This document shows, in pieces, positions 1,818 through 17,900 of a DNA stretch of 20,492 nt. Where the stretch lies: positions 1 through 20,492 of the IMG/VR virus record IMGVR_UViG_3300040751_002956. One strand, written 5' to 3'. Within the stretch, counting starts at the first letter, position 1, and each line of letters begins with the position of its first letter. The DNA comes from a virus. The position numbers and the translations under genes were made by a program. The notes beneath the pieces were generated by a model, which saw nothing but the letters and a program-made list of their open reading frames with translations, was not told the DNA's origin and searched no databases.

Positions 1818-2519
1818 ATGCCATTTTACAGTACTAGAACTATACCTGCAAGTGTTCCTGCAGATGAATCAGAATTAAGTAGGCACACTCAACCCACAAC
1901 TGTAAGGGTTCCACAAAACGCCCATAGATATGCTGGCATGAATGAATCAGGTGAGGCCACAGGAACTAACAGTGTAGGTAATGGACAAATTAGTGCAAGT
2001 AAAGCGGCGTCTAAAGGTGTGCAAGAAATTAGTAGTGCTATTTCTGATGCGTCCAGTAAAGTACAAAGCGGTATTGCACAAGCACAATCAGCCGCGGCAG
2101 ATCCTGTAAGTTTTGTAGCCGGTTTAGCACAACAAGCCACAGGTTTTAGTGTTCCAACAAGCCCCGAAGGTCTTGTTGCATTGCTGTCTAAATTTTCTAA
2201 GCCTAAAGTTACAGGAGACGGAACAACTGATATTTCTAAACGCAAAAGCGAAGGCGAAAATGTAATAGAAGAAATCGGTGATGTTGCTAGTGTTGTAGCA
2301 CAAGGACCTGGCGCACTTGCTAGTAAAATTTCTAGTGTAAGTTCTGCACTTGCTCCGGTTACAGAAGCCGCTAGTGCGGTTACAGAATTAGCAAGTCTAG
2401 GTGGTGTTCCTGTTGATAACGTTATTAGCCAATCAATTTCTAAGGTAACACAACCGGTGCAAAGTAGTTTAACTAAAGTAACAAATGTTACGGATCAAAC
2501 TAGAGGAATAATAACATAA
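1818..2519 (+). CDS. Ala/Ser-rich protein of unknown function between hub and spike genes
   Basis: 233 residues. I do not recognise a family. The first 50 residues are polar with several prolines. From about residue 58 the protein is dominated by Ala, Ser, Val and Thr in stretches that could form amphipathic helices (e.g. ISSAISDASSKVQSGIAQAQ). No Cys or Trp is present, and there is no signal peptide or clear membrane segment. A good AGGAG precedes the start, and the stop overlaps the gp5 start as TAATG, so it is probably translated together with the spike. Its location between hub and spike genes suggests a virion or assembly role such as a spike or hub accessory, but this is context only. 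The 118-residue antisense frame over the same bases is a shadow. Confidence 0.85.
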   Translation: MPFYSTRTIPASVPADESELSRHTQPTTVRVPQNAHRYAGMNESGEATGTNSVGNGQISASKAASKGVQEISSAISDASSKVQSGIAQAQSAAADPVSFVAGLAQQATGFSVPTSPEGLVALLSKFSKPKVTGDGTTDISKRKSEGENVIEEIGDVASVVAQGPGALASKISSVSSALAPVTEAASAVTELASLGGVPVDNVISQSISKVTQPVQSSLTKVTNVTDQTRGIIT

Positions 2520-2521
2520 TG
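2503..2521 (+). promoter_or_regulatory. Translational coupling site: GAGG plus TAATG stop/start overlap into gp5
   Basis: The stop TAA (2517-2519) and the gp5 start ATG (2519-2521) share one base. GAGG at 2503-2506 lies inside the upstream gene, 12 bases before the ATG, which is longer than usual. The arrangement suggests that gp5 is translated by ribosomes finishing the upstream gene. Confidence 0.6.
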
Positions 2522-4471
2522 GTATTCACTCGCGGCCAAAAATCTGCTCTACCATCAAAGGTTAGTAGAAGAGAAGAAGTAGCAGATGCGGCCTTTCATT
2601 ATATAACACAGGCAGAAGTTAGAGAAACAGGCGGCCAGGGTTCGTTTGAAGTTAAAATTTTAGGTAATGAACACAGCGGTCGCAGAAACATTACAGTAAG
2701 AAGTTTATCTCCACATGCTTCTTATAAACCACCAACAGCCGGTGGCGATGATGTTAACAATTTTGAAGACAGTCAGACTGCAAGTGCTATGGTAACTCCT
2801 ACTCCTCAAATTGGAACTAGAGGCATTGTTGCTATGGCTGATAAAAATTCTACAACAGGATTTTGGCTAGGTGCAATTATTCCTCCAGGATTAGGACAAA
2901 CTTTTCCTGAGTTTGGTAGAAGCGACAATGCAGTTGGAGAGCAAAGTGATCTAGATGATCTTGCAAGTCCTGTAGGATTACCTGCAAGTGAAATTAATGG
3001 CGCAAGTTTTGACGGAAGAGTTCCTCGAGATCGTGCTAGACGTGCAGTTCATCCTTTTGCAAGAGTACTACAAAGGCAAGGATTGCTAGTTGATACTGTT
3101 AGAGGCCAAAGTACAAGTAGTTTTTTACGTGACGGTGACACTAGCATGATAGGATTTAACACGCCCGGAGGTGTTGGTACTTCCAGAGATATTGTTTCTA
3201 ATCCTGGTCCTGGTGGTGAAGCCTCACGAAACGCTAGACCATTAACACGTTTAGGCGGACATACATTTGTAATGGACGACGGAGATAACGAAGGAAGGAA
3301 TAATCTTGTAAGAATACGTAGTGGTAAAGGTGCACAGGTTCTAATGCATGACACTGCCGAATTAGTTTACATTACAAATCAATCAGGTAGTGCATGGATA
3401 GAAATGACCGCTGATGGAAAAATTGACATATATGCTAAAGATAGCGTTAGTATTCATACAGAAGCAGATTTTAATTTTAGGGCAGATAGAGATATCAATC
3501 TAGAAGCAGGCAGAAATGTTAATTTAAGAAGCATTGAAAAAACATATATCGAAGGTAACCAATTAAGGGTTTTAGGAAAAGAAGACGGTATTATAGACAT
3601 TAGAGGAGATCTTGATTTTGTTAGCACCGACATGCGTATCGGTACAAACGATTTAAGCATAAGTTCTTCAAATTTGAATATATCTAATAGAATTAATACT
3701 AAAATACGATCGGGAGAACTTGATCTTGTAACACAGTTTGGCATGCGTCAAAGTCATGGTACAGGTTTAGAAATAAAAACAAATGTTTTAGAAAACCAAG
3801 TTTGGAATGCACAAACTTACAATCCAGGAAAAATTTACAACAAGGGGGAAACTGTTATTTTTGCAGGAGTTTTCTATCAAGCACTAAGGACAACTGCTCA
3901 ACCAAACACGCCAAGTGTTCCTGTTCCTCCTGCACCTGGCATTTTTTGGATTGTTGTACCACCGGTCGTTCCTGAAACATTGCATCCTAACTTCAAAGTA
4001 GATACAAATTTAACAGGACCGTTACCGGGTCAAATTCAAATGTTTAGTAAAGATGCAATCAGCATTACATCAGCCGAAAGTACAATAAATCTTAAATCAT
4101 TAACAGAAGACATTAATGTGCAAACTCCTAAAACAGTTTATATAGATGGAACAAGTGCAGTACACTTAAACAAACCGGGCCCGGGCGCCGCTACAGCCGA
4201 TCAAATAATAGTATCCTCTCTTGCTACAAATATACCATTCCCGTTTGATACAGATGCAGAAGGAACAGCGAATGTATCACAAATTGGTGTATTTGAAAAT
4301 CCTATTACAGATCCTAGTTTACCGTGGAATGAAGGTTATTATGCAAGTGAAGATACATTGTTTAGTATTATGAAACGTATACCTATGCACGAACCATGGG
4401 CATTGCACGAAAGTACAGATAAAGAAGCCACAAGTTCAAGTAGAACTGACATACAAACCAGTGGACAATAA
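2519..4471 (+). CDS. gp5: gp5-type baseplate central spike protein, lysozyme-less
   Basis: 650 residues; forms the trimeric membrane-puncturing spike under the hub. An N-terminal OB-fold-like region spans about residues 30-135. A block at about 165-220, with R175-A-V-H178-P-F, QRQGLLVDTVRG and FNTPGG, is what I recall from gp5 of marine T4-like phages. From about 255 to 400 comes a beta-helix-like run of short alternating strands (IEMTADGKIDIYAKDSVSI, then NLEAGRNVNLRS), like the C-terminal helix of T4 gp5. This is interrupted at about 428-480 by a CBM5/12-like module and resumes at about 500-560 (GQIQMFSKDAISITSAES). T4 gp5 carries a lysozyme domain between OB-fold and helix; here that interval holds no lysozyme-like catalytic motif I can see. 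The start is fixed by TAATG coupling to the preceding gene. gp25 follows 17 bases downstream. Confidence 0.9.
   Translation: MVFTRGQKSALPSKVSRREEVADAAFHYITQAEVRETGGQGSFEVKILGNEHSGRRNITVRSLSPHASYKPPTAGGDDVNNFEDSQTASAMVTPTPQIGTRGIVAMADKNSTTGFWLGAIIPPGLGQTFPEFGRSDNAVGEQSDLDDLASPVGLPASEINGASFDGRVPRDRARRAVHPFARVLQRQGLLVDTVRGQSTSSFLRDGDTSMIGFNTPGGVGTSRDIVSNPGPGGEASRNARPLTRLGGHTFVMDDGDNEGRNNLVRIRSGKGAQVLMHDTAELVYITNQSGSAWIEMTADGKIDIYAKDSVSIHTEADFNFRADRDINLEAGRNVNLRSIEKTYIEGNQLRVLGKEDGIIDIRGDLDFVSTDMRIGTNDLSISSSNLNISNRINTKIRSGELDLVTQFGMRQSHGTGLEIKTNVLENQVWNAQTYNPGKIYNKGETVIFAGVFYQALRTTAQPNTPSVPVPPAPGIFWIVVPPVVPETLHPNFKVDTNLTGPLPGQIQMFSKDAISITSAESTINLKSLTEDINVQTPKTVYIDGTSAVHLNKPGPGAATADQIIVSSLATNIPFPFDTDAEGTANVSQIGVFENPITDPSLPWNEGYYASEDTLFSIMKRIPMHEPWALHESTDKEATSSSRTDIQTSGQ
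3800..3958 (+). other. CBM5/12-like module inserted in the gp5 beta-helix
   Basis: Residues about 428-480 of gp5. The pattern is W429, then YNKGETVIFAGVFYQAL, a Pro/Thr-rich loop, and a closing F-W477. This matches the layout of small CBM5/12 (chitin-binding type) domains: an opening Trp, Tyr-x-x-Gly-x-x-Val, an aromatic Tyr-x-Ala, and a closing Trp. Beta-helix-like sequence lies on both sides, so the module would project from the spike. Two similar modules occur in the giant downstream protein. Ligand binding is not established; related folds are common as structural decoration in phage tail proteins. Confidence 0.55.
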
Positions 4472-4488: not shown

Positions 4489-4920
4489 ATGGGACAGTAT
4501 AAAGAAATAGTAATTGCACAACCAAAGTCGACAAATCCTATAGAACAGCAAAAAAGCCAAGTCTATAGGGGCGTTAGCAGTATCAATGAAAATAGCAAAA
4601 GTTTTGCATTATATGACATTGAATTAATTAAACAAGATCTTATAAATCACTTCAATATACGCAAAGGCGAAAAAATATATAATGCTAACTTTGGTAGCAT
4701 ACTACATGATGCTATCCATGAACCTCTGACGTCAGACGTTCGTGAGCAGATTGTGGCAAATGTGCAAGAAATTATAGATTCTGATCCTAGGGTTACAGCA
4801 ACAAATATTGATATTGTTGAAAGAGAATACGGTATACAACTTGCTATAGAATTAGAATTTGTAGACTATTCGCAAGTAGAAACAATAGTGTATAGTTTTG
4901 ATAAAGCAAGCGGTTTGTAA
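4489..4920 (+). CDS. gp25: gp25-type baseplate wedge / sheath initiator protein
   Basis: 143 residues, close to the 132 of T4 gp25. The GPW/gp25 family domain covers about residues 35-140. It shows the helix DIELIKQDLINHFNIRKGEK, then NFGSILHDAIHEPL, then a helix with VREQIVANVQEIIDSDPRV and a closing beta strand LAIELEFVDY. In T4-type tails this protein sits at the inner baseplate ring with gp6 and gp53 and provides the strand onto which the first sheath subunits join. The older label 'lysozyme-like' for this family does not imply enzyme activity. It lies between gp5 and gp6 with short spacers (17 and 44 bases), as expected for a baseplate operon. The first residues (1-34) are polar and look like a flexible extension. 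The start follows a GGTAAATA element. Confidence 0.93.
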   Translation: MGQYKEIVIAQPKSTNPIEQQKSQVYRGVSSINENSKSFALYDIELIKQDLINHFNIRKGEKIYNANFGSILHDAIHEPLTSDVREQIVANVQEIIDSDPRVTATNIDIVEREYGIQLAIELEFVDYSQVETIVYSFDKASGL

Positions 4921-4964: not shown

Positions 4965-7900
4965 ATGGCAAGTTATGATAGACAAAACTCACTTTTAGTT
5001 AACGAAGATTGGAGCAAGATCTACCGATCTTTTACAGACGCAAACTTTAGTTCTTACGATTTTCCAACAATACGTAGGACTATGATCAACTATCTTCGTA
5101 AGAATTATCCAGAAGATTTTAACGATTATATTGAATCAAGTGAATATCTTGCACTAATTGATGTCATAGCATTTTTAGGCCAAAGTTTAAGTTATAGAAT
5201 TGATCTAAATGCTAGAGAAAATTTTATTGAAACAGCACAAAAAAAGGAAAGTGTACTAAAACTTGCACGATTAGTTGGGTATAACAACAAAAGAAACGAG
5301 TGTGCTAGTGGGTTATTAAAAATTACAGGAGTGCAAACAACACAATCACTCAATGATAGTACAGGTACGCCTTTACGGAACCGATTTATTTTATGGAACG
5401 ACGATGCTAACGTAAATTGGCTTGAACAAATAAACACAATTTTTAATAATGCATTCCAAGGAAATATTCAATTTGGTAAACCAAACGCTTCTGAAGTTAT
5501 AGGCGGAATTCAAACAGACGTATACAAATTAAATTCTAGTAATAGTGATATTCCTTCCTACAACTTTTCTAAAACTGTAAACGGTACTCAAACACAGTTT
5601 AATATTGTAAGCAGTAGAATTAGAAATGGTGAAATTGAAGAAGCAACACCATTACCTGGTAATACATTTGGTTTACTTTACAGAAATGATAAAAGAGGTA
5701 ATAGTTCAGAAAATACAGGATACTTTTTGCAGTTTAAGCAAGGAGAAATTTACACTTCTGGATTTAGAATTGACAATCCTACAACAAACGAAATAGTAAA
5801 TCTTAACACTCCAAACATTAACAATACCGATGTGTGGCTTTGGGAGTTAGACCAGAGTGGTAATTTTTTATATGAGTGGACTAAACTTGAAAGCACTGTA
5901 GGGTCTAATGCAATTTACAATTCCTTATCTTCTAATAACAGAAAAATTTACACGGTTGTTTCTAGAGATCAAGATCAAGTTAGTTTAAATTTTGCAGATG
6001 GTAGTTTTGGTGACTTACCTAATGGTAATTTTAGAGTTTATTACAGACAATCTAATGGATTAACATACACAATTAGGCCTGCAGATTTACAAAATATATT
6101 CATCGATATTCCATACACTAGTAAGTCAGGACAGCGTAACACATTAACAATTCAATGTGCATTACAGTCAACGGTTACAAATGCAAGTTCAACTGAGTCT
6201 GTTGCAGAAATTAAAAGAAATGCTCCGCAAGCATTTTATTCTCAAAACAGAATGGTTACTGGTGAAGATTACAACACTTTACCACTTACATCAAGTCCTC
6301 AAATTGTAAAAGCAAAAGCAATTAATAGAGTAAGCAGTGGTGTTAGCAGACAGTTTGAAATTAAAGATCCGACAGGTAAGTATTCATCTACTAATATTAT
6401 GGCTGATGACGGAATTTTATACAAAAATGACTTTGAAGTAGATTTTACATTTACGTTTAGCACAAGAAATGATATATTAGGTGTATTGCGTAACACAGTA
6501 GAGCCTATTATCGCTTCAATTGGCACAAAAAGTTTTTATTATGATAAATTTCCTAGAATTAATACAGAAGGATTGAATATTGATTGGACATTATCAACTA
6601 ACTTATCAAACGGTAGTACAGGTTATTTTAGAAACAATGTTAACGGTGCTCCTATTACAGTTGGTGCATTCACAGGAAATAATTTTAGATTCATTGCTCC
6701 GGATTCAATGATAAAATTTGTACCACCAACTGGTAGATATTTTTTACCTAACGGCGAGTTAACAACAACAAAAACAAAAACAACAAAAGATTACATTTGG
6801 ACTAAGGTTTTAAATGTTGTAGGCGACGGTTCTAATGGAGGATTAGGAGAACTTGATGACGGTTCAGGTCCTGTAACACTTAGTGAAAAAATTCCAAGCC
6901 TTGCAGTACCTAGTCAAATTGTTCCAAATATTGTCACAGATCTACCAAGTGATATTGAAACTGAGATTGTTGATCTTGCTTTTAACTACAAAAACTTTGG
7001 TATTAGATATGATCAACCGACGTTGACTTGGAAAATAATTACAAATGCAAATGTTAATACTATTGATCCTTTTAGTTTAGATAGACAAGGTGACTTGTCA
7101 GGAACAAAATCAGACAAAAGTTGGTTTGTACTATTTGAAACAGACGGTGAAACGTATAATGTAACCTATAGAGGGTTAGACTATAGATTTGAAAGCGAAG
7201 ACTTTGTGCAGTTTTATGTCGATGCAAGAGGAAAAACTTATGATCCTAAGACCGGTACAGTAATTAAAGATCAAATTAAAATTTTAAAAGTAAACGAAGA
7301 TCCAATTCTGGATACATCTTTGGATAAGGATTACCAATGGGAAATTACAGGATCGATTAGAAACAATGATGGATTTGAAGATACAAACAGAATAGAAGTT
7401 AACCTATATGATTCTGACGACGATGGAATGATCGATGATCCGGATAGTTTTTTAAATGTTGTTGCTCCTAATAGCGTAGATATAAGAGGTTATAGAGATA
7501 AGTTTGTATTTTTCCAAACAACACAGGTTGAAAATTATTCAATTGCTCAAAAAATTAATGCAAGTAATTTTGTAATATTTGATCGTGAAACAAGTATTCC
7601 TGCACTAAGTGATTACACAGATGGTCAACTATTTTATTTTTATGCGTCGACAGAAAATGTTATAAAAAGTTATAATGCTACAACTGGTGCTTTAGCATTA
7701 GAAAGTTCTTATTTTGCAAAGCCTGGAAGAGATAACCTAAAATTCCAATATATTCATAATGCAGAAAATGACAGAAGATTAGATCCTAGTAAAACAAATA
7801 TTATTGACCTGTATATGCTTACAGAAGCATATGATAGCGATTATAGAACTTTTGTACAAAATGGCGGTTCAATACCAGCGGCACCTAGCAGTGAACAACT

Positions 7901-8435
7901 TAGGTCACAGTTTGAACCTGAATTAGAAAAAGTTAAAAGTATAAGTGACACGATAATTTTTCATAGCGTTAAGTATAGACCTTTATTTGGAACAACTGCT
8001 GATACAAGCCTACAAGCACAATTTAAATTAGTAAGATCGTCACAGAGCGTAATCAGTGATAATCAACTTAGAAGCGGAGTAGTAGGAGCAATTAACGATT
8101 ACTTTAATATTCAAAATTGGGATTTTGGTGACACTTTTTACTTTACAGAACTTGCAACATATATTCATAATGTTATGGCTCCTGATCTAGCAAACATAGT
8201 AATTGTTCCGAGATCTAATGCACAAAGTTTTGGTAGTTTATTTCAAATTACCAGCAAAGCAGATGAAATTTTTATCAGCACCGCAACTGTAGACAATGTT
8301 GAGATTATTGATAGTTTGACTGCAACTAATTTACAAGCATCAGGAAACGTTATTAGTAGCGTTGAATCAATAGGTACGGTCTCCGTTACTTCGACAAGTT
8401 CTACTACAGTAAGTAACGGAGGTTCTATCTACTAA
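4965..8435 (+). CDS. gp6: gp6-type baseplate wedge protein, enlarged
   Basis: 1,156 residues against 660 for T4 gp6. gp6 dimers form the continuous inner ring of the baseplate and drive its change of shape on contraction. The N-terminal helical block has DFPTIRRTMINYLRKNYPED and ESSEYLALIDVIAFLGQSL. The baseplate_J-type core includes FADGSFGDLPNG at residue 343 and AP-x-A-F-Y-S-Q-N-R-M-V-T-G-E-D-Y from residue 420, both typical of gp6/gpJ proteins. Residues after about 560 have no T4 counterpart that I can place and are beta-rich. They include an EF-hand-like acidic loop at 816-827. The last 30 residues are Ser/Thr/Val-rich. The stop overlaps the next start as TAATG. Confidence 0.92.
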   Translation: MASYDRQNSLLVNEDWSKIYRSFTDANFSSYDFPTIRRTMINYLRKNYPEDFNDYIESSEYLALIDVIAFLGQSLSYRIDLNARENFIETAQKKESVLKLARLVGYNNKRNECASGLLKITGVQTTQSLNDSTGTPLRNRFILWNDDANVNWLEQINTIFNNAFQGNIQFGKPNASEVIGGIQTDVYKLNSSNSDIPSYNFSKTVNGTQTQFNIVSSRIRNGEIEEATPLPGNTFGLLYRNDKRGNSSENTGYFLQFKQGEIYTSGFRIDNPTTNEIVNLNTPNINNTDVWLWELDQSGNFLYEWTKLESTVGSNAIYNSLSSNNRKIYTVVSRDQDQVSLNFADGSFGDLPNGNFRVYYRQSNGLTYTIRPADLQNIFIDIPYTSKSGQRNTLTIQCALQSTVTNASSTESVAEIKRNAPQAFYSQNRMVTGEDYNTLPLTSSPQIVKAKAINRVSSGVSRQFEIKDPTGKYSSTNIMADDGILYKNDFEVDFTFTFSTRNDILGVLRNTVEPIIASIGTKSFYYDKFPRINTEGLNIDWTLSTNLSNGSTGYFRNNVNGAPITVGAFTGNNFRFIAPDSMIKFVPPTGRYFLPNGELTTTKTKTTKDYIWTKVLNVVGDGSNGGLGELDDGSGPVTLSEKIPSLAVPSQIVPNIVTDLPSDIETEIVDLAFNYKNFGIRYDQPTLTWKIITNANVNTIDPFSLDRQGDLSGTKSDKSWFVLFETDGETYNVTYRGLDYRFESEDFVQFYVDARGKTYDPKTGTVIKDQIKILKVNEDPILDTSLDKDYQWEITGSIRNNDGFEDTNRIEVNLYDSDDDGMIDDPDSFLNVVAPNSVDIRGYRDKFVFFQTTQVENYSIAQKINASNFVIFDRETSIPALSDYTDGQLFYFYASTENVIKSYNATTGALALESSYFAKPGRDNLKFQYIHNAENDRRLDPSKTNIIDLYMLTEAYDSDYRTFVQNGGSIPAAPSSEQLRSQFEPELEKVKSISDTIIFHSVKYRPLFGTTADTSLQAQFKLVRSSQSVISDNQLRSGVVGAINDYFNIQNWDFGDTFYFTELATYIHNVMAPDLANIVIVPRSNAQSFGSLFQITSKADEIFISTATVDNVEIIDSLTATNLQASGNVISSVESIGTVSVTSTSSTTVSNGGSIY
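7410..7445 (+). other. EF-hand-like acidic loop in the gp6 C-terminal extension
   Basis: Residues 816-827 read DSDDDGMIDDPD. They match the 12-residue calcium-loop pattern with Asp at positions 1, 3, 5, 9 and 12, Gly at 6 and Ile at 8. No flanking paired EF-hand helices are evident, so if calcium is bound it would be in a TSP3/dockerin-like isolated loop. Confidence 0.5.
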
Positions 8436-8437
8436 TG
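8418..8437 (+). promoter_or_regulatory. GGAGG plus TAATG coupling site into the giant ORF
   Basis: GGAGG (8418-8422) lies inside the end of gp6, 12 bases before the ATG. TAA (8433-8435) and ATG (8435-8437) share one base. This fixes the start of the giant frame and ties its translation to that of gp6. Confidence 0.65.
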
Positions 8438-8930
8438 GCTTATAGCGATAATAACAACGTTCCAGTAAACGCAGAAAACAAAGATCAGTACAGAAATAGT
8501 GCTAATCTTTTACCTTTGTTTTTTAGAACAGAAGCCAATAAAAAGTTTTTAGGGGCTACATTAGATTCACTTATTTCTAAAGGCCAACTAGAAAAAGTTA
8601 ATGGTTTTGTTGGTTCTAGATATGCACGTTCTGCAAAAACTTCTGACAGATATTTAACAGAGCCTACGTCCAATCGTAGAAGATATAATCTATTACCAAG
8701 TGCTGTAATCAGAGATGATTTTGATAATAGAACAGATTGGTTAGCAACATACGACGATTTAATTAATCAAATAGATTTTTTTAATGGCAAAACTAACAAT
8801 CATGACAGACTATTTTCAGGAAATTATTATGCTTGGAATCCGCATATTGATTTTGATAAGATTGCAAATTACAGACAATATTATTGGCTACCACAAGGTC
8901 CTAGTCCTGTAACCGTTACAGGTTTAGCAG
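8435..8930 (+). other. Conserved N-terminal block of the giant protein (possible baseplate anchor)
   Basis: Residues 1-165. It begins with a polar tail, then a helical segment LLPLFFRTEANKKFLGATLD with ISKGQLEKVNGFVG. Next come aromatic stretches RLFSGNYYAWNPHID and NYRQYYWLPQGPSP. I recall this kind of opening at the start of large structural proteins of marine myoviruses. An N-terminal end that docks on the wedge while the C-terminal modules point outward would be the usual polarity for tail fibre-type proteins, but here that is inferred. Confidence 0.5.
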
Positions 8931-11900
8931 AAGGAACTGTAAGTTCGTTTAATGTAACAAATCAAAATAGTAATGCTTGGGTTTTTACACCCGACGGCAG
9001 TAGTGCTAATCCTGTTATAAAATTATATAGAGGTGCAACATACAAATTTGAAGTAAATGCTCCGGGTCATCCTTTTTATATTAAACTTGCTAGAACCACA
9101 GGTGACTTAGATCAGTATGAAGAAGGAATTACAAACAACGGTACAGAAAATGGTGCAGTTGTGTTTACTATTCCAAAAGGTGCTCCTGATATTTTATATT
9201 ACGTTTGTGGCAATCATCAAGAAATGCAAGGTATTTTTGAAATTAAAAATGCAGTTGATGAATTAAACATTGATATTCCTACGGAAATTTTAGGTAAAAG
9301 AGAATATACAAGTGCAAATGGTGTAGAATTTACAAACGGATTAAAAGTTAATTTTACAGGCGATGTAACTCCGTCGACCTATAAAAATAAAAACTTTTAT
9401 GTTGATGGTGTTGGCGATAAAATTAAACTTCTACCTGTTACAGAATTTGACACACCGGAAGGATACAGTCAGAATTTTGACTACGAATTTGATATTGAAA
9501 GTTTTGATGAAACTCCATACGATGATGCAGAAAGTTCGCCAACAATTTCTGAATATGTAACAATCAATCGTGCAAGCATTGATAAAAATCCGTGGAGTCG
9601 CTATAATAGATGGTTCCATGTTGATGTTATTGAAGCAACAGCAAAATATAATAATACCAGTGCGGTATTAGATGAAAATACTAGGGCAAAAAGACCGATT
9701 ATTGAATTTAAGCCTAATATACAATTACATAATTTTGCCACACAAGGAATTGGTAACATTGATGTTATTGATACTGTTACTACAGATGCATTTAGTGATG
9801 TTGAAGGACAGATAGGTTATTATATTGATGAAATTGATTTAGTCAAAGGTATGAGGGTTACATTCAATGCAGATACTGATATCACAGTTCGAGGCAAGAT
9901 TTATGAAGTAGATTTTGTAAGTCATGGCGGCAAATCTAGACTACATTTAATTGAAAAAGAAACACCTGTTAACGGGCAAGGAATTGTAGTTAATGACGGT
10001 AGAAGTGAAAAAGGCACAAGTTGGTATTTTGACGGAGTACATTGGATTCGTGGACAACAGAAAACTACTATCAATCAAGCACCTCTATTTGAATTGTATG
10101 ATAATAATAACACATCATTTAGTGATTCAACATATGGGGTCAATGCGTTTCAAGGAAATGAATTAGTAAGTTATAAAATTGGCACAGGCGGAAATGATAA
10201 TATTTTAGGTTTTCCACTCGAATATCAAAACGTTGCTAATATTGGCGATATAGTTTTTGAGTTTGATTGGGATGATCAGAGTTTTACATATAATAATGGC
10301 GATCAAAATGTTGTCCAAGATACTGCAAGTGGGAATGTAAAAGTTAGCGAAGATTTAACAACTTATGTTTTTGAATCTGGTTGGTCTATTGTAGATGAAG
10401 ACATTAGACAAAAAATTATACAAATAAATGATACAGTTATTACTACACCGTTTATAGAAATAACATCAATAATTGATCCTGGATTATATTTACAGCCTCA
10501 AGATATTGTTGTAGAATACGAAAGTAACATCTTAAAATCAAATCATGGATTTAGTTTTAGAGCAGAGAACAAAAGACTTTTCTTAGATTTTGCAGAAAGC
10601 ATTCCTGGTGATGTAAGAGTTACAATTAAAATTTTAACAAATCAAACACCGACACAGTTTGGATTTTATGAACCTCCTATTAATTTAACTAATAACAGTG
10701 AAAATAATGACTTAAAAACATTTACTTTAGGTAGTGTTACAGATCATGTAAAAACAATTTTTTCAAATGATCAGCGTGTTGTAGGACAATTTAATCGTAC
10801 TTCTAATGCACGTGACATTAAAGATTTATACAAATTTGGTAGAAGGTACGTAAAACATCAAAGCAGTGTACTACCTGCTATCTTCGGTTTAGTAGATAGT
10901 GAAACAAATGTTATTAAAGCAATTAGAAAAAATGCTTTAGATTATAATGTATTCAAACAACAGTTTATAAAAGTTTTTGATAAAACTGAAATATCTGGTA
11001 ATCCTCGCGATGACGTAGACGCAATATTGTACAGCATGGCACTGAATACGCAACCAGATAGTCAATATTTTTATAGTGACATGTCTGGGTTTGGGCGTTC
11101 ATTAACTAAAAATGAATATACTGTCAATGCATTCGAACAACAGATATTTGGAATCCAATCAAACTTTAATTTAAATCAAATATCTAACAGAAGTATATAT
11201 GTTTATTTTAACGGTGAGCATTTAATTAATACTAAAGATTATGAGTTTGATCCTACAGATAACACTGTAACTATTTTGAGACCAACAAGTATTGGGGATA
11301 CAGTTGTAGTTTACGATTATGACACAACAGGTAATGTTATACCTAGCACACCTACTAAGTTGGGATTGTATCCAAAATTTGAACCTAAAATTTATGTAGA
11401 TGACACGTATGTTACTCCAACAAAAGTGATCCAAGGTCATGACGGTAGTAAAGTAGTAGCCTATGACGATTATAGAGATGACATTATTCTTGAACTGGAA
11501 AAAAGAATTTACAACAATATAAAAGTAGATTATGATAGAAGTGTATTTGATAGCAATAAATTTATTCCTGGTGCTTTTAGAAATAACAGTTATACTACAC
11601 AAGAATTTAACGAAATATTAGAAGACGATTTTAACTACTGGTCAAATTTATATAGTATCGAATATTTAGAAAATACCACAAGCGTTGAAGGAGATGTATT
11701 TTCTTATAACTTATCGTCAGGCAACGACGTTATTAATAATGAAAGTTTACCTGGATACTGGCGAGCAATATATAAAAAGTTTTATGATACTGATCGTCCG
11801 CATACTGCACCTTGGGAAATGCTAGGATATTCGGAACAACCTAGTTGGTGGAAAGGTCGTTATGGCCCAGCACCTTACACTAAAGGAAATAATATTCTTT

Positions 11901-14900
11901 GGGAAGATATTGAAAAAGGTTTTGATTATGGTATTGGAAAATCAAATCCAATTTATGCAAGACCCGGATTGAGTAAAATTCTTCCTGTAAATGATTATGG
12001 AGATTTATTAAGTCCAATAGAAGCAAATTTAGTTAGTGGATTTATTACAACAAATCTTAACCAAGATTGGGTATTTGGTGACACCGGTCCTGCAGAGTAT
12101 GCTTGGAGATCTAGTAGTTGGTATCCATATGCACTTCAAGTGGCACTAGCATTAACAAAACCTGCAAACTATCTAACTACACAGTTTGACACAAGTCAAA
12201 ATTTACAATCAGCAAGCGGAAACACAATTTATAAATCAACTGGTAAAATTATAGATTTTACAGATATTAAAATTCACAATCTATTTTACAATCGTGTAAG
12301 ATACTTTGGTGCAGGATATCATGTGTTTGTTGTTGATTACTTAAAATCTAAAGCACAAGATGTTGTTATTGGATATCACGAAAGACTAACAAACATCAGT
12401 ATGAATCTATCATACAAAACAGGTGCATTTGTTAACAAAGAACGATTAAAAGTTTTACTAGAAAGCAGTAATCCTAATCAACCAGACAAAAGTATTTTTT
12501 TACCAGATGAGAATTATGAAGTTACATTTAGAAAAAGCAATCCGGTCTTTACTGCAAACATAAGCGGTGTAATTGTTGAAAAGACTGATAGAGGATATTT
12601 GGTTAAAGGATATAACAAGTATCAACCAAGATTTCAAATTTACAAGCCTATTCTTTCACAGAGAGATCAAGCGGTAAACATTGGTGGAACTTCTGCAAAA
12701 TTTATTCTTTGGCAAGAACAAAAATTTTATGGTATCGGCCAAATAGTTCAATATGATGGATTTTATTATAGAACAAACCAAGATCACACTAGTGATACAG
12801 TCTTCGACCCGACAAAATTTTCTAGATTAGCAGAACTTCCACTTACTGGCGGAGCAAGTGTTCAAAAGCCAATTAGATTCGAAGAAGTTGTATCAACTGT
12901 TCCATACAATACTGTTCTACCTAATATTCAGGAAGTATATAACTTATTATTAGGATACGGAAAATATTTAGAAAGTATAGGATTTGTGTTTGATGAAAAA
13001 ATCAACGAACTCGGAGAACTTTCAGATTGGGATTTAAGCGGCAAAGAATTTTTATACTGGACTACACAAAACTGGAATGTAGGAAGTGTTATTACATTAT
13101 CTCCTTTTGCTGGCAAAATTAAATTTAAGTTTGCAACAGGCCAGGTAGATAATGTTTTAGATAGTTTTTACGAATATTCTATCTATAATGCCGCAGGAAA
13201 TATTATTGGTAGAAATAATATCAGCACTATTAGAGAAAGCGGTTCTTTTCAATTAATGCCAAAAGATACACTAGAAGGTATCTTTAATGCACAACTAAAC
13301 TTAGTACAAAAAGAACATGTTCTAGTGTTTGACGATAAGAGTGTTTTTGGTGATGTTATATATGATCAAGAAGCAGGATACAGACAAGAAAGATTAAAAT
13401 TAATTGGGTTTAAAACTACTGAATGGGACGGTGATTTGTTTAGTCCAGGATTTGTTTTTGACGAAGCAAAGATTGCTCCGTGGACAAGTTATAAAGATTA
13501 TAATTTAGGTGATGTTGTAAAATATAAATCTAAATTTTATAGTGCAAAAACTTTTATTGCTGGCAGTAGTGAATTCGAATATTCAAAGTGGATTTATTTA
13601 GAAAATGAACCCAAGGCTGAATTGTTGCCTAATTTAGATTTTAAAATTAGTAATTTCCAAGACTTTTATAACCTTGATACAGAAACATTTGATGATGCAA
13701 CAACTAAATTATCACAACACTTGATTGGCTATCAAAAGCGTTTTTATTTAGATAATCTTATTCAAGACAGCACAGCACAATATAAATTTTATCAAGGATA
13801 CATCAAAGAAAAAGGAACCAAAAATGCTGTTGACGGGATTGGTCGTTTACGCATTGACGGTGTAACCACAAATGTAGAACTTGACGAAGAATGGGCCTTT
13901 AAGGTAGGAAGTTATGGTAGTACATCTACTGTAAATGAAATTGAATTTGTTCTAAATGAAAAAGACAACTTAGATAATCCTCAGGCGTATGACTTTGTAA
14001 GTGCAGTTACAACAAATACATCACCGGGTAATAATATTCAATTGCTTGCTAATAGTATTGCAATTAAGCCATCGAACTATGATAACAACCCATGGCCGAT
14101 TACAAATTTAAGTGCCGATGATGGAATAACAAGCGATTATATTAACAAACTACCGGTAGCAGGCTATCCAAGAGTAGATGATATTCCTACAACAGCATTT
14201 AGATATAGTGATATGATCGGAAGCAGTATCATTAATCAGTTAGATGATAGTGATTTAATTTGGGTGGCAAAAGACAGAGATAATGATTGGAATGTATATC
14301 AGTTGCAATCAATACCTGCAAGAATTATTCAAACCGATGATATCAAAACACAATTTTTTGATGGGGAAATTACTTTCTTTACAGATATACCTCATAATCT
14401 ACAAGTAGGACAAATTATAAGTATTAAAAATTTCGGTGATGATATTGATAATGTTTATGAAGTAAAATCAATACCAAATACAACTTCTTTTAAAGTCGCA
14501 GGAGAAGATTCGAGTGCATCTTTACAAGATAGTTCAGCAGGAACTATTTTAGAATTTATTACTAATAGAGTCAGCAATCCTGATGGAATTAACAACATAA
14601 AAAATGTTACTACAATTGAGGACGATAGTTTAATCTACGCCGACGATGACGGTACCGGCAAATGGGCAGTATACCAAAAAACTAGAGCATTTAAAGAAAA
14701 CAAATGGGGAAGTCCGAATGAAATACTAGGACAAAAGTTTGGCTACAATATTACTACTGCTAATCAAGGAAGAACTATAGTCGTTGCGGCTCCTACATTC
14801 GGAGATGAGGGACAAATATATGTTCTAAACAGAGAATTTAACACAGGTATTGAAACACTTCAAACAACACAAGGTTTTAGTGTCTCATTTAATGCTAGTG

Positions 14901-17900
14901 ATAACATTGTAAGTGATGCAGGAAATCCTGCATTAGGATCGAGTTTAGCATTAAGTAATGATGGAACAGTTTTAGCGGCCGGTGCACCTGAATCTAGTAA
15001 TTTTAAAGGTGCAGATGATAGCACATACGGTAATGGATTTAGAGTTAGCATAGGGGACTTCACTGTAGATCCAAGCCCTTACAGCAGAGAAGGTGTAGTA
15101 ACACTTCATACTTATGACACACAAGAAAATCTTTTTAAATTAAATTATATAATTGGATCAAGTGAACCTGAAGACGATCTACATTTTGGTACTAGCGTAT
15201 TGGTATCTAATACTAAATTGCTTGTAGGTGCTCCAGGCAAAACAAACTATCAAGGTAAAGTTTATATCTACGATAAAACTACTAGACCAGACGGAAGCAC
15301 ACTCGATTGGGATCTAAGCGATCATCACATTTTGTCTATTCCTAATAGTAGAGATGGTGATAGATTTGGATCTACTATGACTGCAACTAGTGACCTAAGC
15401 ATAATTGCAGTTAGTGCGCCGGGATACGAAGAACAAGGCGATGATAGCACAGCAAACAAAGGTGCAGTATTCATTTATAGTTTGAACAACAACGAATATC
15501 AACTTTTACAAACAATTAGCAGTGCAACATTTAATGAAATAGATTCAGGTGATAGTTTTGGCTATGCGATGGATATGAGCAGTGACGGAACTACACTTAT
15601 TATAAGTGCACCATATGACGATGCAAATACAGTTAATAGCGGCGCAGTTTATTACTTCAAAAAAACAGGCGATGATAGCAGTCAAGACCTGTACACATAC
15701 CAGCAAACTATTTTTAGTCCTCTAAAAGCAGTTCAAGAACAGTTTGGTGCTAATCTATCTTTAAATGCAGAAGGTAATGCTTTTGCAGTATGGAGCCAAC
15801 ATGGACGTAATAGGTTAGAAACAACATTTGACAAATTTACTATACTAGAAGATAGCACAATAGGCCAAACTAGTGCAGAAACAACCTTTGATGCAGGGAC
15901 ATTAGGTATTGTCGATGAAAATTATGCAAGTGGTACAGTTTATACATACACTTTAATTAATACTAAGTTTGTTTTCGGACAAAATATTAGTTCTATTACC
16001 ACAAATGAATTTGATGAGTTTGGCAGAGGTCTTGCTTATACAGGAAATTCTCTTGTTGTAGGATCTCCTAATAGCAAAAATATTGATAATGAATCTATTG
16101 GAAGTTTGTTTGTATATCAAAAAACAGGTAGCGGCGGCTGGAATAAATTAAGAACACAAGATGATCCAGTAGATCCGTATAGTGTTAAAAAGGCATTCAC
16201 TTACAATCGTGCCACAAACAAAGTTAAAGACTTTTTAGAAACAATCGATCCTGCAAAAGGAAAAATATCCTACCTTGCAGATGCAGAAGTCAAATATAAA
16301 ACAGATGTAGATCCAGCAACGTATACTTTTGGTACAGATACTGTTAATGTCAAGCCAACAACTGCATGGACAAACGAGCATGTAGGAGAAGTTTGGTGGG
16401 ATTTGTCAACTGCTAGTTTTATTTGGTATGAACAAGGTGATACTGAGTATAGAAAAACAAATTGGGGATCATTATTTCCAGGATCTACTGTAGATGTGTA
16501 TGAATGGGTTGAGTCTAGTTTATTGCCTAGCGAATGGTTAGAGTTATCTTCAACTCAGCAAGGATTTGCACAAGGAATTAGCGGAACACCTAAATATGGT
16601 GACGATGTGTTTACACAGAAAAATATCTATAATAGTGTTTCGGGTGGGTTTGAATCTAGATATTATTTCTGGGTAAAAAATAAAGTTGACGTTCCTAATT
16701 TACCGGATAGAAATATTCCTGTGGTTGAGATTGCAAATATTATTACAGACCCGCAAGCCTACGGAGTAAAAAGCATTCAATTGTTAAGTAAAAATGCACT
16801 AAGCATTAGTAATGTAAAAACAACATTAGATGACAGTAATGTTTTCCTTAATATTCAATATAGAAATATTGAAACTGATATTCCTGAACACAATGAATGG
16901 CAATTAATAGGAGAAAATCAATATAAGAAAATTGATAACGAACTTCTTATTAAAAAACTTGTTGATAGTTTAACAGGATATGACAGCACCGGAAATCCAG
17001 TACCGGATACAGCATTACCATTGCAACGCAAATACGGGATTCAAGTTCGTCCTAGACAAAGCATGTTTGTTGATAGACTAAAAGCCTTAGAAACTTTGAT
17101 TATATACACAAATCAAATAATGCTTGGGGAAAGAATTGTTGATACTAAAAATATTCAACCATTATTTGAAAAAGATCCATTACCAGCACAAGGGACAGGT
17201 AAATGGGATATTACTATTGATGAAATTGAAGATTTAGATAATGTCGGAACACAAGATTTAGTACAAGCAAGTGCTACAGTAAATCTAGTCAATGGTAGAG
17301 TAACATCTGTAAAAGTAGTAAATTCTGGCTTTGGATATAAAAATCCTCCAGAAATACAAATTACAGGAAACGGAAGTGGTGCCAAACTAAAAGCAAATAT
17401 TAATGCTAACGGAGAAATAACGTCAATTGATGTTGTAAAACAAGGAACAAATTATAGTTTCTGTAATATCTATATTAGACCTTTTAGGGTACTAGTTCAA
17501 GTTGATAGTACTGCTAATAATAACTGGGCAATTTACGAATGGCAAACTGCAACAAAGTTATGGTCAAGAACAAATACTCAAACTTATGATTTAAGACGTT
17601 TTTGGAGATATGCGGATTACATTGTTCCAGGTTTTAATATTGATACAATTATAGATTATAAAATCAGTGCTCCTTACGAATTGAATACAATTAATCCGCA
17701 AGAAGGAGATATTGTAAGAGTTGAAAATGCCGGCGATGGTAATAGCATGATCTTGAAAAAAGTTATTACTAATGGTACATTTAATAATGATTATGACTTG
17801 ATGTACAAAGCAAACTCAACGATTCAAATAAATTCAAACATATACAATTATGAAGAACTAAACTTTGGTTATGCTGGTTTAGAAAACTATGATGTTAACT

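Follow-up and report, generated by a model that had tools for sequence, protein, structure and literature searches.

Whether a phage tail protein can hold a complete type-1 copper site, and what such a site would do on a virion, is the question raised by a very long open reading frame in IMG/VR virus record IMGVR_UViG_3300040751_002956. The window, meaning the whole stretch of DNA analysed, is 20,492 bases long and comes from an uncultured, probably marine, phage. All positions below are those of the window, and all features lie on its plus strand.

Locus and fold of the domain

The plus strand of the window carries a phage baseplate cluster, identified from the open reading frame list and from Pfam and PHROG matches, in the order gp5-like, gp25, gp6 and giant open reading frame. 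The gp5-like protein (2519-4471), which has a weak CBM_5_12 match, is followed by a gp25-like baseplate wedge protein or sheath initiator (4489-4920; Pfam GPW_gp25, E 1.8e-7) and a gp6-like baseplate wedge protein (4965-8435; PHROG 10646, E 5e-299), the latter with 35% identity to the baseplate wedge subunit of Agrobacterium phage Atu_ph07. The giant baseplate-region structural protein (8435-20491) has 4,019 residues and is open at the 3' end of the window. It was assigned using PHROG 10938 (virion structural protein), PHROG 2885 and PHROG 708 (baseplate wedge subunit), and tblastn, by which its relatives are virion structural proteins adjoining gp6 in jumbo phages. For gp6 and the giant protein together, the relatives are baseplate wedge or virion structural proteins of jumbo phages such as Atu_ph07, GAP32, RaK2 and PA5oct at 30-35% identity. 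The giant protein also contains a CBM_5_12 (chitin-binding type) match at residues 1426-1455 (12710-12799) and FG-GAP repeats near residue 2370.

After a conserved N-terminal segment (residues 1-165, 8435-8929), which is also present in jumbo phages without the following domain, a domain at residues ~172-270 (8948-9244) was recognised by an iterated family profile at E ~1e-44 (match at 172-270) and by the C-terminal region of PHROG 677 (E 3.2e-22 over ~107 residues, profile positions 303-411 of 412). It contains His212 (ligand 1, 9068-9070, in a GHPF signature), Cys258 (ligand 2, 9206-9208), His261 (ligand 3, 9215-9217) and Met264 (ligand 4, axial, 9224-9226), in the order H...C-x2-H-x2-M, and C-x2-H-x2-M occurs only once in the giant protein. 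The sequence-only reading had pointed to these four residues as a type-1 copper site in cupredoxin order with amicyanin-like spacing, and had argued against chance from one of only four cysteines in 4,019 residues lying at the ligand position. Order and spacing were confirmed at 9068-9226 in the open reading frame at 8435-20491, and the cysteines are indeed those at 258, 3010, 3546 and 3953, with no others. The motif is far beyond chance because it lies inside a profile-recognised domain, its spacing is fixed and its four residues are retained or lost jointly.

Residues 160-285 were modelled using AlphaFold2 from 70 natural homologues. The model has a mean pLDDT of 91.2, a pTM of 0.83 and a pLDDT of about 98 around the ligands; its strands span model residues 10 to 112, and the Cys-His-Met loop lies between strands E94-99 and E106-112. 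All 50 of the 50 matches listed by Foldseek against the PDB were copper proteins or their engineered or apo forms, including AcoP, rusticyanin, pseudoazurin, CuNIR, multicopper oxidases (laccase, CueO and Fet3p) and CuA domains, and one listed match was a pseudoazurin with an engineered amicyanin loop. E-values reached 1.3e-5 at a probability of 1.00, with TM-scores of only about 0.5, and the domain was therefore taken to be a distinct branch of the cupredoxin fold. The model and the Foldseek matches place the domain in this fold, a Greek-key beta-sandwich. On this model, residues ~172-270 form a true cupredoxin domain.

Sequence profiles pointed the same way at modest E-values. With an 18-member homologue profile, nearly all matches among PDB sequences were plastocyanin, CuNIR, amicyanin, rusticyanin and pseudoazurin (best E 6e-4, to plastocyanin; others 1e-3 to 1e-2), and the C-x2-H...M-x-G end was aligned with that of the copper proteins; a wider 70-member profile gave weaker matches. 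No Pfam copper family, including PF00127 (Copper-bind), was over the cut-off for the window domain alone, and PF00127 matched 5 of the 18 homologues weakly (best E 1.4e-4). HMMER paired the Pro of the family with the Pro of the plastocyanin PHN, which shifted the first His by two residues. This shift was treated as an alignment artefact because, in 59 of 83 representatives, the strand Gly and the first His are 12 residues apart, which we take to be the distance in pseudoazurin.

Ligand set, conservation and loss

The His, Cys, His (plus Met) set of a type-1 site is present in the domain, with the last three ligands together on the loop that precedes the last strand. Among 90 representatives at <70% identity, the C-x2-H-x2-M spacing, followed by x-G, was found in 89, and Y-x-C and M-x-G are conserved around the ligand loop. 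The first His is followed by Pro in 87 of the 90, giving an HP[FLI] signature. Between the ligands, the exposed residues of the loop vary across the representatives, among which no conserved patch for docking was therefore found.

The domain shares the cupredoxin fold and the order H...C...H...M with amicyanin, pseudoazurin and plastocyanin (PF00127), and its C-x2-H-x2-M loop is common to amicyanin. The small blue copper proteins have His-Asn at the first ligand, and this amicyanin-type PHN is not matched by the phage domain, which has His-Pro-[FLI]. They are also free carriers, whereas the phage form is a domain inside a structural protein, falls below the PF00127 cut-offs and is not known to have a redox partner. 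In multicopper oxidases (laccase, CueO and Fet3p), the T1 His begins an HPFH motif whose first His is on T1. The H-P-F start of the first-ligand strand is shared with these enzymes, and we take the HP[FLI] of the phage domain to resemble their T1 His; however, they have a trinuclear copper cluster, its His pairs and a longer loop, all of which are missing from the phage form, a single domain with C-x2-H-x2-M. In Fet3p, a single strand that connects the T1 and T2 sites carries both His413 and His416 (PMC5796215), which fits such a motif. The site in the phage domain would be type-1-like, with a colour or potential that may not be that of a classical blue site.

For the census of ligands, homologues found in viral contigs, in cultured phages and in cellular genomes were aligned with the iterated profile, and distinct complete copies were counted. 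Two large viral scans gave at least 600 matches each, and the census is of copies among the matches listed. All four ligands (HCHM) are present in 225 of 255 such copies, which are viral with some cellular; none has lost one or two ligands, 10 have lost three and 20 have lost four. After reduction to <70% identity, the copies among the matches listed with 0, 1, 2, 3 and 4 ligands lost number 90, 0, 0, 4 and 11. His212 is invariant in all copies that keep the Cys, His and Met, and synonymous codon changes occur at the His and Cys positions, with the residues unchanged. Control quartets were drawn from similarly conserved columns; none of 1,820 behaved like the ligand quartet, and in each of them 14 copies or more show a partial loss. 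A search bias from ligand-containing peptide patterns was considered and rejected, as the result was unchanged when only the 167 copies that ligand-free patterns can reach were counted (161, 0, 0, 1 and 5 copies with 0, 1, 2, 3 and 4 ligands lost). A chance motif was ruled out by the all-or-none census and the control quartets.

The sequence-only reading had counted homologues that keep the fold and lose one or more ligands against the site. To the letter, 30 of the 255 copies do so, but each has lost three or four ligands jointly and none one or two, among the matches listed. In the giant protein, one change on the tree of the flanking segment accounts for all ligand-less orthologues, and the copies are for that reason not independent. 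Further joint losses were found in a fibre of phage RN05-S (L028) and in a verrucomicrobial contig (L249), so that there were at least three separate joint losses. The case rests on the absence of partial sites among the matches listed and not on the number of losses. As far as alignments can tell, all-or-none loss is what a real site would show if it were given up as a whole. The domain very probably carries a real metal site, and the metal is likely to be copper in a type-1-like site.

Occurrence and accessory character

The domain was found at E below 1e-3 in at least 286 of 50,697 phage records, nearly all of them cyanophages, with a few marine and pelagiphage records. Its commonest place is the C-terminus of gp9, which adjoins the giant protein in cyanomyophages, and it also occurs in tail fibres, in small podovirus tail-region genes and in a pelagiphage fibre. 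The similar endings in marine virion proteins mentioned in the sequence-only reading were thus borne out in gp9, fibre and tail proteins of marine phages. PHROG 677, which groups the gp9 form under the name 'baseplate wedge tail fiber protein connector', without mention of a metal, is homologous to the window domain, and the same four ligands are present in every cyanophage gp9 examined; there the domain ends a short protein, whereas in the window it is inserted after residue ~165 of a giant one. Viral predicted structures like the model (BFVD) were mostly phage structural proteins, many of them from cyanophages. Cellular homologues mostly have lipoprotein-type signal sequences, consistent with an extracellular role, and are from Flavobacteriaceae (with CHRD or Lipoprotein_15 domains) and marine archaea.

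Several less typical copies were also seen. In four cyanomyophage loci (L026, L032, L035 and L038), the baseplate wedge protein encoded by the second open reading frame after gp9 has a divergent cupredoxin-like copy (HPMQ, HPIQ or HPIR ... C-x2-H-x2-M-x-G) together with YHYH pieces. Two cupredoxin copies are present in viral loci L135, L136, L141, L195, L061 and L033, in the last of these within one protein. The 'Rickettsiales' MAG contig NZIN01000059 (L198) has the domain behind a T4 gp9/10-like N-terminus and is therefore probably phage sequence. Three fold-like BFVD entries (A0A481Z6J5, A0A481Z7Q7 and A0A481YXP1; TM ~0.65) are small 'beta-sandwich' or uncharacterised proteins from pithovirus- and marseillevirus-like genomes.

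By alignment, the domain is absent between the conserved flanks in the cultured jumbo phages Atu_ph07, GAP32, SCTP-2 and PA5oct, where the flanks lie close together. A sister clade of the giant protein keeps the fold at the same place without the ligands, and so provides a natural control for the contribution of the metal. The domain is accessory to baseplate function, given that the site was lost at least three times and that the domain is absent from cultured jumbo relatives; it is, on these comparisons, an inserted and dispensable accessory module of the baseplate protein. What stood of the proposed complete copper site in a tail protein is therefore a complete type-1-like ligand set in the cupredoxin fold of a baseplate protein, qualified in that the site is accessory, with three or four ligands absent in 30 of 255 copies. 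Activity of a new kind for a tail, as put forward in the sequence-only reading, is kept as a hypothesis.

Proposed role and alternatives

The preferred reading is of a cupredoxin with a type-1 copper site, acting as a self-contained baseplate module with a copper-locked role in host contact, and it is given about an even chance. If copper is taken to sit in the type-1-like site, a role in host contact or adsorption is in itself judged equally likely to be right or wrong. The site would be empty during protein synthesis in the reducing, copper-poor host cytoplasm and, as the cytoplasm holds little free copper, would be filled once the cell lyses or the particle is in sea water. Copper, when bound, would lock the Cys-His-Met loop and the adjoining strands into a rigid tip with one exposed His, and the loaded tip could then dock to, or be oriented by, components of the host envelope. 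Such an adsorption aid would be dispensable when the host or habitat changes.

Cupredoxins, phage-carried plastocyanin (PMC3037559) and iron in tail fibres (PMC11705849) are already known. In the open-access journal literature searched, no paper was found that links a cupredoxin with a baseplate or reports a type-1 copper domain for virions, those of cyanophages included. The phage-borne plastocyanin (petE), a cyanophage auxiliary metabolic gene (PMC3037559), is also a cupredoxin carried by cyanophages, but it is a free, host-like electron carrier from another branch of the fold. With the domain recurring in tail proteins of hundreds of marine phages, and its four ligands retained or lost jointly, copper is probably present on marine virus particles. 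It is a tentative and rather doubtful extension that marine phages in general have blue-copper centres in the machinery of adsorption, as a copper counterpart of the iron 'Ferrojan horse', with redox-gated or copper-dependent docking at the host surface, the metal being taken up from sea water or from the host as it lyses, and with virions carrying copper in the ocean. If copper is bound, cyanophages, pelagiphages and their kin, which rank among the ocean's most numerous particles, would carry type-1 copper centres in their tails; copper dependence of adsorption would be directly testable, marine copper would have a new class of ligand, and many unannotated gp9 and fibre domains could be named.

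Type-1 sites are usually electron-transfer sites, and the domain could instead be a redox module, with Cu(I)/Cu(II) cycling passing electrons from a host-surface donor to an acceptor or sensing redox state so as to trigger contraction. A candidate acceptor is the YHYH domain (PF14240) at residues 3385-3565 of the same protein (18587-19129; Pfam E 4.5e-51, intact GVYHYH motif), a domain predicted to be a metal-dependent hydrolase of the tail (PMC7824862). Its AlphaFold2 model has a pLDDT of 68 with a confident core and gave no fold match in the PDB, and matches to it in the phage collection (455 records) were from marine phages only. Among relatives of the window protein, 11 of 13 records with an intact site have YHYH in the same protein, and 19 of 21 ligand-less records are without it. 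This association follows one split of the tree, however, and may be shared ancestry. YHYH is absent from the podoviruses P-SCSP2, P-GSP1 and HTVC028P, which carry the cupredoxin domain, and in 80 independently sampled YHYH loci no cupredoxin lies within ~1.5 kb; these two results rule out YHYH as an obligate partner. Motif and site are also not strictly coupled, one relative that keeps the copper ligands (L293, locus L315) having YNYV in place of YHYH, and the surface of the loop is variable. A redox module is accordingly considered unlikely.

Also unlikely, and put somewhat lower, is that the metal serves as a staple whose sole effect is to stabilise a small, cysteine-poor beta-sandwich of an extracellular particle, with a part in neither contact nor electron transfer. 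With four cysteines in the giant protein, disulphides cannot serve, and the fold recurs as a module in many tail proteins that are otherwise unrelated, as this explanation would have it. Against it, the fold is retained in orthologues that have no metal site, so that stability is independent of the site, and partial or substituted ligand sets would be predicted, of which none was seen among the matches listed.

A real site with a natural metal other than copper (Zn, Fe or Co), for example as an iron-type Trojan-horse ligand, is improbable. Cupredoxin ligands do bind other divalent metals in vitro. HxH iron sites in marine-phage tail fibres have been described, with a proposed importance where sea water is poor in metals (PMC11705849). 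Such fibres (T4 gp37, alterophage R22Y) have metal at the host-contacting end of the tail, as is proposed for the copper-type domain. Their sites are His-only, octahedral iron sites in trimeric fibres, in contrast to the Cys-His2-Met cupredoxin site of the window domain, a globular beta-sandwich in whose sequence and model no HxH motif was found. Cys, Met and two His form a copper-type set that differs from the HxH iron geometry, and the relatives by fold and by profile are copper proteins. That the ligands are chance or relic residues in an Ig-like beta-sandwich, with no functional metal site, would fit the weak per-sequence E-values to known copper families but is very improbable given the all-or-none conservation in the 255 copies among the matches listed, for which no control quartet was comparable.

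The YHYH motif itself varies among relatives. In two ligand-less relatives (L283 and L286, loci L312 and L337), YSYR replaces YHYH, and the giant proteins of cyanophages vary at YHYH while the HS and DG-x-PIYGP core stays.
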